IMG/VR virus record: IMGVR_UViG_3300037587_000140
Location: 1 to 35,592 of that record
DNA length: 35,592 bases
Reading direction: 5' to 3' (one strand)
DNA from: a virus
The notes below the pieces were generated by a model, which worked only from the letters and a program-made list of their open reading frames with translations, was not told where the DNA came from and ran no database searches. Each line of letters opens with the position of its first letter. The stretch's first letter is position 1. The position numbers and the translations under genes were made by a program. Of the stretch, positions 25,736 through 31,275 are shown one piece after another.

Positions 25736-25935
25736 TTTACGCAACGCCTTACAACCCGACTACCAAGAAATGCACCGGACCGTCGACAGACTCCGGGCTC
25801 GAATCGCTCGACCAAGTAGCGGAATTTATGGGGCCGCCGACTCGCCGCTCGCGTCGCTGGCTGGCCTACGTTACCGACGACGACCAGGCTATCGCGTATA
25901 GCGATTTTGTATTTAATAGCGGAGAAACTGAGTAA
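25732..25935 (+). CDS. Small hypothetical protein
   Basis: A 67-residue protein that begins at an ATGA overlap with the nuclease stop and ends at a TAATG overlap with the methyltransferase. It contains TGPSTDSGLESLDQVAEFMG and a basic PPTRRSRRWLAYV segment. No function can be given; the coupling at both ends supports that it is real. Confidence 0.6.
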   Translation: MIYATPYNPTTKKCTGPSTDSGLESLDQVAEFMGPPTRRSRRWLAYVTDDDQAIAYSDFVFNSGETE

Positions 25936-26708
25936 TGCAAGATTACGTTACCGATAATTGCCGGTTAATGAACGGGGACTGTTTGGAACGGATGAAACAG
26001 ATACCAGACGGGAGTATCGATATGGTTTTGACGGACCCGCCCTATGGGACGACCGCTTGTAAATGGGATTCGGTTATCCCCCTGGCCGCAATGTGGGCGC
26101 ATCTGAAACGGATTATTAAGCCGAATGGCGCCATTGTGATGACTGCCGCACAACCGTTCACTAGTGTGTTGGTCTGCAGCAATCTGCAGGATTTTAAATA
26201 TGATTGGACTTGGCAAAAACCGAAGGGTACCGGACACTTGAACGCGAAAAAACAACCAATGCGGGACAAAGAGGACATCGTAGTTTTTTACAAAAAACAA
26301 TGCACCTATAACCCCCAAATGACTAAAGGTACGCCTTATCGAGAAAAAAGCGGGTGGAAAGGTTCGAACGGGTACGAGGGGTACGGTGTCGATAAAAGAG
26401 TCGGGAACGATAATGGGGGTACCCGATACCCTAAACAAGTCCAACAGTTTATTGGAGTCGAAAGAGATATATCTCACCCGACACAAAAACCCGTTGCGTT
26501 AATGGAATACCTAATTAAAACCTATACGAATCTCGGCGAAACAGTTCTCGATTTTACAATGGGTAGCGGGACGACGGGCGTAGCTGCGGGCAACCTGGGC
26601 CGTGTGTTTATCGGCATTGAACGGGACGAAAAGTATTACAACACCGCTATCGCCCGGATATGGTCCGAGGTAGTACGCACTGTTGACGATGGCGGCACTA
26701 CGCGATAG
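25935..26708 (+). CDS. DNA methyltransferase, beta class, DPPY type
   Basis: A 257-residue methyltransferase with catalytic motif IV DPPYG (34-38) near the N-terminus and AdoMet motif I FTMGSGTTG (207-215) near the C-terminus, the order of the beta class (like CcrM). DPPY favours N6-adenine methylation. The region between (with a YKKQCTYNPQMTKGTPYREK segment) is the target-recognition part. TQKPVALMEYLI is the usual motif before motif I. No restriction enzyme gene is beside it, so it is likely an orphan that protects phage DNA or changes host signalling. The gene is visibly richer in A and T than its neighbours, suggesting separate acquisition. Confidence 0.9.
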   Translation: MQDYVTDNCRLMNGDCLERMKQIPDGSIDMVLTDPPYGTTACKWDSVIPLAAMWAHLKRIIKPNGAIVMTAAQPFTSVLVCSNLQDFKYDWTWQKPKGTGHLNAKKQPMRDKEDIVVFYKKQCTYNPQMTKGTPYREKSGWKGSNGYEGYGVDKRVGNDNGGTRYPKQVQQFIGVERDISHPTQKPVALMEYLIKTYTNLGETVLDFTMGSGTTGVAAGNLGRVFIGIERDEKYYNTAIARIWSEVVRTVDDGGTTR

Positions 26709-26744: not shown

Positions 26745-27254
26745 ATGCAACCAGATAAAGCAAGCGTACTGAAAAAAGCCCGGGAGCTGGTTACGACCGG
26801 CGGGCTAATCAACCTAAGCCGCCGGGAGCTATGCGAAGCCGCCGGTATCCCGGACGGATCCTTCCCGCACGTTATGGGCTGTAACTTCGCGGAGTTCGTC
26901 GACCAGTTGCGCGGCGAGGATATCCAGGAAAACGCCCATACCGTAAGTAAGTCCCGGGCTAACCCGGAGCTGCGCCGCGCCCAGATACTCGGGATAGCGG
27001 TAGAGCAGGCTAAAACCGTCGGATACCACAAGATCACGCGGGACAGCGTAGCCGAAGGCGCGGGCGTATCTATGGGCCTCGTTACTCGCTACTTCGGAAC
27101 CATGCAAAAATTACGCAGGGCCGTAATGCGGGCGGCTATCGCCCGCCGCATTCCCGAAATTGTCGCCCAGGGCCTCGGCACTTGCGACCCCTTAGCGCGG
27201 AAAGCGCCGGCCGACCTTAAGGCCCGGGCCGCCGGCCTACTCGCTAACGCCTAA
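26745..27254 (+). CDS. Putative regulator with two TetR-like HTH segments
   Basis: A 169-residue protein with two segments that each resemble the TetR DNA-binding domain. The second is clear: ILGIAVEQAKTVGYHKITRD then VAEGAGVSMGLVTRYFGT (about 79-125). The first is looser: KARELVTTGG, LSRRELCEAAGIPDGSFPHV (about 11-52). There is no room for a TetR ligand-binding domain. Usual TetR proteins dimerise through that domain; this one may place two HTHs in one chain. It is the first gene after promoter P2, in front of the primase-helicase, so it could control the TTGACG promoters. That is inference. Confidence 0.75.
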   Translation: MQPDKASVLKKARELVTTGGLINLSRRELCEAAGIPDGSFPHVMGCNFAEFVDQLRGEDIQENAHTVSKSRANPELRRAQILGIAVEQAKTVGYHKITRDSVAEGAGVSMGLVTRYFGTMQKLRRAVMRAAIARRIPEIVAQGLGTCDPLARKAPADLKARAAGLLANA

Positions 27255-27265
27255 AGGGGGTCGGT

Positions 27266-29920
27266 ATGCAGCAGTTACCGGACGCGTTCGCGCCAATGGC
27301 GGCGTACGCTCAATTTATACTGTACAAACTAGCCCCGCGCCCGGGGGTCCCTGGCAAAACTGATAAATTCCCGTGTGATTTAGCGGGCAGCATTAAAGAC
27401 GCCCACGACGCCAGTATCCGGGTAGACGCCGCGACGGCGGTAACGACGGCGGCCATGTTCGGGCCGGAATACGGGGTCGGGTTTGTATTCACCGAAGCCG
27501 ATCCGTTTTACTTTTTCGATATAGACGACTGTTTGCTCCCTAGCCGGGAATGGTCCCCGATGGCGTTAGAGTTAATCGCCCGGTTCCCCGGCGCCGCGGT
27601 AGAGATATCCCAGTCGGGTAGCGGTTTACATATCTTCGGAACCGGTAGCCCTGCAGTACCTGCCGGCGACCGGCGTAAAAAGGCGAAGCACCCCGAAACC
27701 GGGGAGAGCGCGGGGCTGTTCGACCTGTACACCGAAAAGCGATTCGTGGCTTTGACGGGTACCGGGGTGACCGGTAACGCGGGGACGCCAGCGGACCAGG
27801 CCCAGCTAGACTACATCGTCGATTTTTGGCTTAAGAAAACCGCCGGGGGCTCGGAAGAGTGGACCACCGAAGCGGTAGAAGGCTCGACGCCGATAGAAGA
27901 CGACGACGCGCTTATCGCCAAAGCCTGCAGCGTTCAGAGCGCCGCGGGTACCTTCGGTAAGGCCGTTTCTTTTAAACAGCTATGGGAAGGGGACGACCAG
28001 AACTTCGGGGACGCCTACCCGGACGACCAGGGCGTTAAGGCTTACGACGCGTCGCGGGTAGACGCCGCCCTCGCGCAACATTTAGCATTCTGGACCGGTA
28101 ACAACTCGGAACGGATACTCCGGTTAATGCGGGAGTCCGCGTTAACCCGGGGGAAGTGGGACGACCGCGAAGAGTACCTTATCAACACGATTACCCGCGC
28201 TACCGCCCTGCAAGAGTCGTTTTATTCGACGGGTACCGAAGCGAACGCGGAAGGGGTCGCCCTGGCCGAGCAGTTCGGCGCCGTTAAGCTCCGGGCCAGC
28301 AGCGAAGCCCAGCGCGCCTACGGGGACAACGTCCGGGCCGATAAGCTGGCCCAGTGTGCCGGTTCTGTGGATTTATTAGAGCAGTTCTGTAAGGTACCTA
28401 CCGCTAAATTCTGGCTCGACAATAAAGACCACGACGTCCAGGCCCTTAGCGCGATGCTTACCCCCGTGGAGCAGGCGGCCGCCCCGTTAGGCGTCGTCGA
28501 CCAGGGCGCGCAAATGGTTAGCGGTTTCCAGTATCTCGGGGCTACCCAGCAGGTCGAGTACTTCGCGGGCTGCGTCTATATTCAGGAGCAACATAAGGTA
28601 TTCGCCCCCACCGGTGCATTACTTAAGCCCGATCAGTTTAACGCGACCTACGGCGGTTACGTCTTCCAACTGGACGACGGCGGCGAGAAGACGACCCGCA
28701 AAGCCTGGGAGGCGTTTACCGAATCCCAGGTCGTCCGATATCCAAAGGCGGAAGCTACTTGTTTCCGGCCGCAGCTCGCCGCCGGGGCGTTGATCGAGCA
28801 GGACGGCCGGGTCCTGGTTAATACCTACGTACCGGTAGCGACGCCCCAGGCTGCAGGGGACGTTACACCGTTCCTGGCCCACCTGGCGAAAAACCTACCC
28901 GTAGAATCCGACCGCGCTATCCTCCTGGCGTACATGGCGGCTTGTATCCAGTATAAGGGCGTTAAATTCCAATGGGCGCCGTTACTGCAGGGCGCACCGG
29001 GTAACGGTAAAACGCTCTATACCCGCTGCGTCGCGGCCGCAATCGGGGAGCGCTATACGCACTTCCCACCGGCGAACGAGATAGCCGAGAAATATAACGA
29101 CTGGCTATTCGACCGCCTGTTTATCGGGGTCGAAGACGTCTACGTCCAGGACCATAAAAAGGAAGTTATCGAAGTCCTTAAGCCAATGATAACGAACGAC
29201 CGGCTAGCTAAACGGGCCATGCAGCAGGGCCAGGTTATGGGCGACGTCTGCGCTAACTTCCTGCTCAACAGCAACCATAAGGACGGTATCCGGAAGACGC
29301 GCGACGATCGACGGTTCGCCGTGTTCTATACCCTGCAGCAAACGGCCGACGATGTAGTCCGCGACGGTATGGGGGGTAACTACTTCCCCGACCTATACGA
29401 CTGGCTTAAAGGGCGCAACCGGTACCAAGGGCAGGTTAGCGGCTACGCTATCGTTTCCGAGTATCTGGCTACTTACCCTATCCCCGCAGAACTCAACCCG
29501 GCCGGCGAATGCCACCGGGCGCCGGAAACGTCCAGCACTAACGAGGCGATTACCGCGTCCCTGGGGGGCATAGAGCAGGAAGTATTAGAAGCGATCGACG
29601 AAGGGCGGCAGGGCTTCGCGGGCGGCTGGATATCGTCTATGGCGCTCGAACGGCTACTCGACCAGCGGCGTAAGGCCGGAGCGATCCCGCCGAATAAGCG
29701 CCGCGAACTCCTGCAGCAGCTCGGCTACGACTGGCACCCCGCGTTAAATAACGGGCGCGTCAATAACCCTATCCCCTTGGATGGCGGTAAGCCGCGTTTG
29801 TTCATTCGTGACGGTCACATTTCCGCAAATTTAGCCACGGCGGCCGAAGTGGTCCGCGCATACCAAGCGGCCCAGGACGCGATAGGCGTTTCTGTGGCTA
29901 AGGAGACGTTCGCGAAATGA
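27266..29920 (+). CDS. Primase-helicase (prim-pol plus SF3 helicase)
   Basis: An 884-residue protein. The N-terminal ~200 residues look like an archaeo-eukaryotic primase/prim-pol: FYFFDIDDC (84-89, acidic metal-binding residues), ISQSGSGLHIFGTG and LFDLYTEKRFVALTG. The C-terminal half has the D5/SF3-type ATPase with Walker A GAPGNGKT (576-583), LFIGVEDVYV as the Walker B region and NFLLNSNHKDGIRK as sensor, with the arginine-rich DDRRFAVFYT. It should prime and unwind DNA at the fork, or load at the origin. AAAGGGGG (27252-27259) precedes the start. The 3' end overlaps the radical SAM gene by 4 bp. Confidence 0.88.
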   Translation: MQQLPDAFAPMAAYAQFILYKLAPRPGVPGKTDKFPCDLAGSIKDAHDASIRVDAATAVTTAAMFGPEYGVGFVFTEADPFYFFDIDDCLLPSREWSPMALELIARFPGAAVEISQSGSGLHIFGTGSPAVPAGDRRKKAKHPETGESAGLFDLYTEKRFVALTGTGVTGNAGTPADQAQLDYIVDFWLKKTAGGSEEWTTEAVEGSTPIEDDDALIAKACSVQSAAGTFGKAVSFKQLWEGDDQNFGDAYPDDQGVKAYDASRVDAALAQHLAFWTGNNSERILRLMRESALTRGKWDDREEYLINTITRATALQESFYSTGTEANAEGVALAEQFGAVKLRASSEAQRAYGDNVRADKLAQCAGSVDLLEQFCKVPTAKFWLDNKDHDVQALSAMLTPVEQAAAPLGVVDQGAQMVSGFQYLGATQQVEYFAGCVYIQEQHKVFAPTGALLKPDQFNATYGGYVFQLDDGGEKTTRKAWEAFTESQVVRYPKAEATCFRPQLAAGALIEQDGRVLVNTYVPVATPQAAGDVTPFLAHLAKNLPVESDRAILLAYMAACIQYKGVKFQWAPLLQGAPGNGKTLYTRCVAAAIGERYTHFPPANEIAEKYNDWLFDRLFIGVEDVYVQDHKKEVIEVLKPMITNDRLAKRAMQQGQVMGDVCANFLLNSNHKDGIRKTRDDRRFAVFYTLQQTADDVVRDGMGGNYFPDLYDWLKGRNRYQGQVSGYAIVSEYLATYPIPAELNPAGECHRAPETSSTNEAITASLGGIEQEVLEAIDEGRQGFAGGWISSMALERLLDQRRKAGAIPPNKRRELLQQLGYDWHPALNNGRVNNPIPLDGGKPRLFIRDGHISANLATAAEVVRAYQAAQDAIGVSVAKETFAK

Positions 29921-30681
29921 AACAAAAACATTTTTGGGCAGTCGTACCCCTTTCGCCCGGCCAGTTGCGAGACGTCCGAGGTATTGACGTTTTGGCGGGC
30001 GGCCTTTTCCGTAAATGTAGCACGTACCGAGGGGGTGGGGGCTACGACCAGTTTCCGGAAGTTTGTCGGGGTTTTACCGGGCGGGCACTATCGGAACAGT
30101 TTATAGTCCAGCTTCGCGGGTGTAATTTAGATTGCCCTTATTGCTATGTTACCCGGGCAGGAGTCTGGGGGGCGCCTACCGCAATTACGGCTGCGGCACT
30201 GGTGGACGCTTTTATCGAGTCTAAACAACAAGTATTCCACCTAATGGGGGGCGCCCCGGCGCTCTACCGGCGGCACTGGCCCGAGTTGATTACCGCCCTG
30301 CTCCAGGCGGCCCCCGAGGCAGTGTTCCACTCAGATTTAATGCTTACAGAAAACCGCTACCGGCAGCTATCGGACATAGCCCACCCCCGCGCGATTTATG
30401 CAGTCAACATTAAAGGACTTAATGCCGCTGAGTTCGAGAGAAACACACGCAAGCCCTTAGACTGGTCCCTGTTCTGGGAGAACTGGCGCGCCGTGGCCCG
30501 CTCCGGCATTCAGTATTATGTAACTTTTACGGGGGTGGACGTTTCCGGGCTTCCTGACTTTTGGGAACTGGCCGCGCGTAACGGGGTCGAAAGGCCCCCG
30601 ACAGGTCGGGTACACAATATCCCCATAATTAGCTACGAAGCTTCCGACGAAGTAGATCGGACGACTTGGGGCGCGAAATAA
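29917..30681 (+). CDS. Radical SAM enzyme, substrate unknown
   Basis: A 254-residue protein with the radical SAM cluster motif GCNLDCPYCY (C69-x3-C73-x2-C76, aromatic residue before the last Cys), followed by MGGAP (111-114) at the place of the GGE SAM-binding motif, with Ala instead of Glu. The later strand AIYAVNIKGL fits the barrel pattern of PflA-like enzymes. It has no extra C-terminal cluster domain; two more cysteines lie before the motif (C34, C50). The size is like QueE or activating enzymes, but no queuosine/deazaguanine genes or glycyl-radical enzyme are seen. It overlaps the primase-helicase by 4 bp, so it is made with it. The start of the motif-bearing barrel is at about residue 60; the first 60 residues are unlike known families to me. 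Confidence 0.85.
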   Translation: MKQKHFWAVVPLSPGQLRDVRGIDVLAGGLFRKCSTYRGGGGYDQFPEVCRGFTGRALSEQFIVQLRGCNLDCPYCYVTRAGVWGAPTAITAAALVDAFIESKQQVFHLMGGAPALYRRHWPELITALLQAAPEAVFHSDLMLTENRYRQLSDIAHPRAIYAVNIKGLNAAEFERNTRKPLDWSLFWENWRAVARSGIQYYVTFTGVDVSGLPDFWELAARNGVERPPTGRVHNIPIISYEASDEVDRTTWGAK

Positions 30682-30903: not shown

Positions 30904-31275
30904 ATGAAACCTACCCTCAACAGCGTCGAAATTAAACAGCCCCCCTTCGACGACTTGATAGCCCTAACCCTTAACCAGCGCGACGACGCTCGCGGGTGGG
31001 TTACTGCGTTCCGCCATGCGGCTAATAGCCTGGCGCTCGAAGCGGGGATTATCCCGGCCCATATTGACCACGACGAAGCGGCTAAGTCTGTATGCGGCGA
31101 TCACCTCTACCTCGAGCTTATCGCCGAAGCGGAACTCCGGCTTAAGCGCCTTAGCACTGGCTACGAACGGCTGCGGGCTGCAGCGTTTAAGATAACCGAA
31201 GCCCAAGACAGCTTATCGGCGACGCGCGACGCTATGGCCGAACTGCTCGAGGTGCTAGAAAATGACCTCTCGTAA
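30904..31275 (+). CDS. Hypothetical helical protein
   Basis: A 123-residue protein with GGAG at 30891-30894. It is mostly helical; residues ~70-120 (LELIAEAELRLKRLSTGYER, then a long heptad-like stretch) suggest a coiled coil. The start MKPTLNSVEIKQPPFDDLIA is polar. No family recognised. It overlaps the next gene by 14 bp. Confidence 0.65.
   Translation: MKPTLNSVEIKQPPFDDLIALTLNQRDDARGWVTAFRHAANSLALEAGIIPAHIDHDEAAKSVCGDHLYLELIAEAELRLKRLSTGYERLRAAAFKITEAQDSLSATRDAMAELLEVLENDLS

Follow-up and report, generated by a model that had tools for sequence, protein, structure and literature searches.

A compact radical SAM enzyme with an invariant N-terminal cysteine defines a candidate phage-restricted subgroup

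Introduction

Phage radical SAM enzymes have been a source of new DNA modifications and of antiviral chemistry. The solved structure closest to the enzyme described here is that of PFL-AE (PflA; 3c8f and 3cb8), a protein-modifying activase that forms a compact single-domain barrel of approximately 250 amino acids with one cluster and a CX3CX2C motif. Other relatives are the activase model NrdG2 (TIGR02495), QueE, a radical SAM enzyme that is likewise small and lies close to nucleotide genes, and viperin and pVip, which share the radical SAM core. The thymidine-hypermodification isomerase of phage M6 is also a phage radical SAM protein, but it has 503 amino acids and another architecture.

Here we analyzed one IMG/VR virus record of 35,592 bases, referred to as the window, that encodes a radical SAM protein of 254 amino acids. 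Like PflA, this protein is predicted to be a compact barrel with a single CX3CX2C cluster, and its K166 falls in the column of the DxK lysine of PflA. Unlike PflA, with which it shares 13 to 14% identity, it has GGAP where PflA has GGE, lacks DGPGxR before the first strand, and instead carries an N-terminal lid of its own with an invariant cysteine (C34). Neither the phage family to which it belongs nor its closest bacterial relatives have a name in NCBIfam, Pfam, or PADLOC, and we found no description of the family in the literature. Judged from sequence, the family appears to be a new, uncharacterized subgroup of the known radical SAM superfamily that is restricted to phages in the collections scanned. 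This subgroup has no named family model and no partner gene, keeps its candidate catalytic residues strictly, and is found in phages of approximately 37 kb to more than 300 kb, and it presents a small, defined target of one 254-amino-acid protein and one candidate cysteine.

A radical SAM gene in a contractile-tailed phage

The window is a fragment of a contractile-tailed phage with tail sheath, tape measure, and baseplate genes. Its nearest GenBank relative is Shewanella phage SppYZU01 (43.6 kb), with 74.6% identity in the sheath and 59% in the primase. The record is probably short of approximately 8 kb of the phage genome, so that genes absent from the window are not necessarily absent from the phage.

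A previous sequence-only reading had described a radical SAM gene with a CX3CX2C motif and no accessory cluster domain, overlapping a primase-helicase gene by 4 bp and following methyltransferase and helix-turn-helix genes, and all of these features are borne out (Table 1). The gene starts with an ATG that overlaps the primase-helicase stop codon (ATGA), and the cluster motif of the protein reads RGCNLDCPYC. The Radical_SAM match spans residues 66 to 207 with 42.7 bits, above the cut-off of 29.5, and no other Pfam family passed its cut-off. NCBIfam returned 22 weak matches, every one far under its curated cut-off, and neither database recognized a SPASM or other auxiliary-cluster domain. A sequence search of solved structures gave no significant homologue, and a scan for promoters and terminators was uninformative, with counts close to or under those of shuffled sequences.

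The third-position G+C content of the radical SAM gene is 0.60, compared to 0.71 for the primase and 0.53 for the methyltransferase. The lower value relative to the primase is in keeping with acquisition of the gene, short of proof. The methyltransferase gene has an overall G+C content of 48%, compared to 60 to 61% in the surrounding genes, which suggests that it was acquired separately. SppYZU01 and phage Scuro carry genes annotated as TetR-type regulators in a position similar to that of the TetR-type gene here.

Table 1. Features of the window and the evidence for each
Feature	Position	Strand	Evidence
DNA methyltransferase	25935-26708		N6_N4_Mtase 1e-31
HTH gene, TetR-type, upstream of primase	26745-27254		TetR_N 7e-11
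DNA primase-helicase (NrS-1-polymerase-like HBD + DUF5906)	27266-29920	+	phrog_1829 1e-137; PF22763, PF19263
Radical SAM enzyme gene	29917-30681	+	ORF; PF04055 8.8e-11; family alignments; AlphaFold2 model pLDDT 90
N-terminal lid segment (putative), FRKCSTYRGGGGYDQFP, codons 31-47	30007-30057	+	R32, C34, D44 invariant 29/29; loop 39-41 pLDDT <50
C69-x3-C73-x2-C76, predicted [4Fe-4S] ligands, codons 69-76	30121-30144	+	29/29; PF04055
H-L-M-G-G-A-P SAM-contact motif, E to A, codons 108-114	30238-30258	+	Family alignment
(N/S/D)-x-K-G motif, codons 164-167	30406-30417	+	K166 invariant; same column as K131 of E. coli PflA (D129-x-K131)
Next conserved gene	30904-31275	+	Homologue in L004, 43% identity, 3e-23

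Conserved residues and predicted fold

We aligned 29 non-redundant family members with pairwise identities of 21 to 75%. Since the gene is conserved in 28 homologues across this range, it is not a chance open reading frame. In addition to the three cluster cysteines, the N-terminal segment has R32, C34, and D44 invariant in all 29 sequences, and so are F62, V64, Q65, L71, Y77, V78, H108, M110, G111, G112, P114, W121, S139, K166, Y201, T203, and Y240 in the remainder of the protein. At least 12 of the invariant residues lie outside the core, which argues for catalysis under selection.

The sequence-only reading had also singled out the first 60 or so residues as unusual, with two extra cysteines. 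This holds for the segment as a whole and for C34, the only invariant non-cluster cysteine in the family alignment, while C50 is present in just 10 of the 29 members. The alteration of the SAM-contact motif, seen earlier in the window copy as GGAP, proved to be a family trait and not a quirk of that copy; the residue in place of glutamate is alanine in 22 members, serine in six, and cysteine in one (GGAP, GGSP, and GGCP), and never glutamate.

Profile search and structure prediction, both proposed with the sequence-only reading, placed the protein above the Radical_SAM cut-off, reached no NCBIfam subgroup, and gave an AlphaFold2 barrel nearest to PFL-AE. The model, made from 17 sequences, has a pLDDT of 90 and a pTM of 0.89. 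In it, a strand at residues 31 to 34 ends at C34 and is followed by a glycine-rich loop, a helix at residues 46 to 54, the first barrel strand at residues 61 to 66, and the cluster loop. This predicted compact, single-domain barrel had 32 PDB matches at an E value of 0.001 or less (Foldseek), nearly all of them radical SAM proteins. The best were PFL-AE 3c8f (3.3e-7, TM 0.59) and 3cb8 (2e-6), followed by lipoyl synthase, BlsE, DesII, and others, while viral structure models gave generic radical SAM matches only. Residues 39 to 41, in the glycine-rich loop after C34, are the sole stretch of three or more residues with a pLDDT below 50, as would be expected for a mobile lid. Given its invariance, its position, and the disordered glycine loop of the model, C34 is a probable catalytic cysteine in this putative lid.

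The family is found in phages

The family comprises 29 non-redundant phage sequences from IMG/VR and from one phage contig of a Myxococcota metagenome-assembled genome (MAG). The IMG/VR members were collected by single-sequence and profile scans (L001, L018-L033, L035-L047, L064, and L065). Since the scans depend on conserved peptides, the counts are minimum values, and absence elsewhere refers only to the collections scanned. Searches of 50,697 GenBank phage records (E values up to 0.1) and of 72,556 PLSDB plasmids (E values up to 0.01) gave no homologue.

When 84,980 prokaryote species were scanned with a pattern, the Myxococcota contig alone matched (L034, JAJCZJ010000127.1). This 47-kb contig carries a large terminase gene (Terminase_6N, 1.2e-11) and is thus a phage, with portal-like, capsid-like, and integrase-like reading frames identified by inspection; an RtcB-like gene lies near its radical SAM gene. 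In 395 more genomes of the same phylum there was no further true member, and the other eight matches were QueE or other radical SAM proteins. We therefore rejected a cellular origin, since the sole true member in this phylum is the known phage contig.

The records that carry the gene range from fragments to 317 kb. In most of them the family member is the only radical SAM gene or one of two. From sequence, the gene encodes a complete [4Fe-4S]/SAM core, is conserved among widely differing phages, and has the character of a mobile, stand-alone accessory gene that moves between phage genomes.

The closest cellular relative that we found is a bacterial family (L057, L059, L060, and L063; hhalign 7e-10, 96.5%, for L057). 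The two share a stretch after the fifth strand, VSLKG-x3-EEF-x2-LTG in bacteria and VNIKG-x3-AEF-x3-NT in phages. In contrast to the phage family, the bacterial proteins keep GGEP and have neither C34 nor the RGGGGYD lid. Read as rooted, with just two outgroup rows, the tree groups all 29 phage sequences in a single clade separate from the bacterial family (100/100). The bacterial family has a signature of its own, GC-x-L-x-C-x-FCW (GCGLTCKFCWV). Among other single sequences, hhalign scores were 7e-6 for the QueE of phage record L033, 3e-5 for MoaA, 6e-5 for PflA, and 1e-3 for both NrdG and E. coli QueE; these scores come from separate tests on single sequences, and the ranking is only rough.

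The genomic neighborhood is not conserved

Although the 4-bp overlap couples the primase-helicase and radical SAM genes translationally, the primase is not a conserved partner. The gene is absent from the DNA examined at 15 IMG/VR loci with a related primase (42 to 70% identity) and from SppYZU01. Its homologues adjoin many different genes. A meaningful link to the primase-helicase, which the sequence-only reading had implied and had proposed to follow through co-occurrence, is therefore not sustained; functional coupling was rejected because related primases occur without the radical SAM gene, and the pairing is local. At one of these loci (L004), the first gene that we identified downstream of the primase is a homologue of the gene that follows the radical SAM gene in the window, which indicates that the radical SAM gene is a cassette located between the two.

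We found no conserved neighbor in the flanks fetched for the family, and no Pfam or PHROG family occurs more than five times among 143 neighbors; a conserved neighbor as the partner was rejected on these grounds. The flanks include DNA polymerase (L034), 5'-3' exonuclease (L030), DnaB (L042), and UvrD-type helicase (L021 and L038) genes, a primase with an SSB-like gene (L001 and L044), ThyA (L020), ThyX (L032), dCMP deaminase (three loci, L026 and L028 among them), NrdG with an HD hydrolase (L037), and a NAMPT-like gene (L025), where the SSB-like, ThyX, HD, and NAMPT-like names come from reading the sequence and not from profiles. These neighborhoods lean weakly toward DNA and nucleotide metabolism. 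Accessory genes are frequently located in replication and nucleotide modules, and the bias is weak evidence for that reason.

Across whole records, Gly_radical was found in 1 of 29, and NrdD in 1, QueD in 5, thymidylate synthase (ThyA) in 6, and NADAR in 4 of 30. These counts led us to reject all five, as encoded by the phage, as general partners. The gene had been described as an orphan without a queuosine, glycyl-radical, ribonucleotide reductase, or peptide partner, and no such partner was recognized in most of the 30 records searched.

Individual loci show other arrangements. In L033 (5995-8618), a divergent family member directly follows QueD and QueE, so that a single block of this phage encodes two distinct small radical SAM enzymes. 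In L027 (7992-10747), a NADAR-domain gene comes after the family member, together with MazG-like and DNA ligase-like genes, the last two named by sequence reading; this record is also the only one of the set with an NrdD/glycyl-radical gene (G010, 116569-118434). In L026 (6495-7199), a gene of GP88 (PF17338), another uncharacterized cysteine-rich phage family, precedes the family member.

Possible functions

We tentatively favor the hypothesis that the protein, which belongs to a phage-restricted family, is an active and compact radical SAM enzyme with a stand-alone, accessory role, and that it acts on a nucleotide or nucleic acid, C34 playing a part in a lid. By comparison with the superfamily, the cluster on C69, C73, and C76 would cleave SAM to a 5'-deoxyadenosyl radical. 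The N-terminal lid, made of the strand at residues 31 to 34 with C34, the glycine-rich loop at residues 39 to 42, and D44, would close over the substrate, with H108, S139/D140, K166, T203, and Y240 predicted to line the site. After the first abstraction, C34 may give or take a hydrogen atom or hold the substrate. Spore photoproduct lyase uses a non-cluster cysteine as a hydrogen donor, which offers an analogy for C34. The genomic context hints, more faintly, that the substrate might be a nucleotide or nucleic acid available from any host, in which case a dedicated partner gene is unnecessary, and that the product might, at an early stage of infection, benefit the genome of the phage or the precursors of that genome through modification, salvage, repair, or counter-defense. 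A fuller version, in which a new phage-restricted subgroup performs, with a single enzyme, a reaction without precedent on a nucleotide or nucleic acid through a catalytic C34 in a glycine-rich lid, as a widespread accessory and possibly in counter-defense in uncultivated phages, giant phages among them, is rather unlikely.

Among solved folds, the nearest belongs to a protein-modifying activase and would fit a protein substrate equally well, which speaks against the nucleotide reading. The main rival is a protein target by analogy to PFL-AE, where the enzyme would introduce a glycyl radical into, or otherwise modify, a host enzyme (e.g., anaerobic ribonucleotide reductase or pyruvate formate-lyase) and sustain dNTP supply or energy during infection. 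The fold match and the lysine motif on the fifth strand, shared with PflA, are consistent with this, as is NrdG2 being the top NCBIfam model (matched by 16 of 17 members, best 1e-7), followed by PFLA (best 3e-7). Yet NrdG2 scores 23 bits where its cut-off is 131, PFLA scores 12.9 bits against 231.75, and the NCBIfam matches in general lie mostly over residues 62 to 125. The lid takes the place of DGPGxR, and to our knowledge activases have no role that matches an invariant C34. The window has no glycyl-radical partner gene and such genes are rare among the records, although the host may supply a partner. We consider a protein target unlikely.

Less likely still is that the enzyme makes or counters an antiviral or signaling nucleotide by viperin-like chemistry or its reverse. 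A weak PADLOC match to pVip across the core (5e-4), the restriction of this accessory gene to phages, and the occasional NAD- or ADP-ribose-linked neighbors (NADAR and NAMPT-like) point in this direction. However, viperin itself scores 14.1 bits against a cut-off of 180 over only about 60 core residues, its structures are general fold matches (approximately 1e-3), the lid and C terminus differ, and few records encode NADAR.

Modification of tRNA or other host RNA, or of a small metabolite outside nucleotide metabolism, is improbable. Compact radical SAM enzymes act in this way elsewhere, it would need no partner, and the window contains no tRNA gene, but we recognized no THUMP, TRAM, or CCCH RNA-binding domain and found nothing that supports it specifically.

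Least probable is a part in a known DNA hypermodification (7-deazaguanine or amino acid derivatives of 5-hydroxymethyl-dU), for which the QueD and QueE genes of L033 and the thymidylate synthases of L020 and L032 speak, and against which stand the separate QueE of L033, a QueE score of 18.5 bits against a cut-off of 260.1, the absence of the QueC/D/F pathway from most records and of QueD and thymidylate synthase from the window, and a score of 2.0 bits between the family profile and the M6 protein, on which kinship to the M6 isomerase was rejected.

Taken on sequence, the family would not belong with activases of a phage-encoded enzyme, QueE, viperin, or the thymidine isomerase. It also differs from SPASM/Twitch maturases, with no auxiliary-cluster domain and C34 as the sole additional invariant cysteine. 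Lastly, a viral-classed record only distantly related to the family (L048, 7986-16231) has a run of several radical SAM genes, together with an upstream gene for a 2296-amino-acid protein and a glycosyltransferase-like gene.
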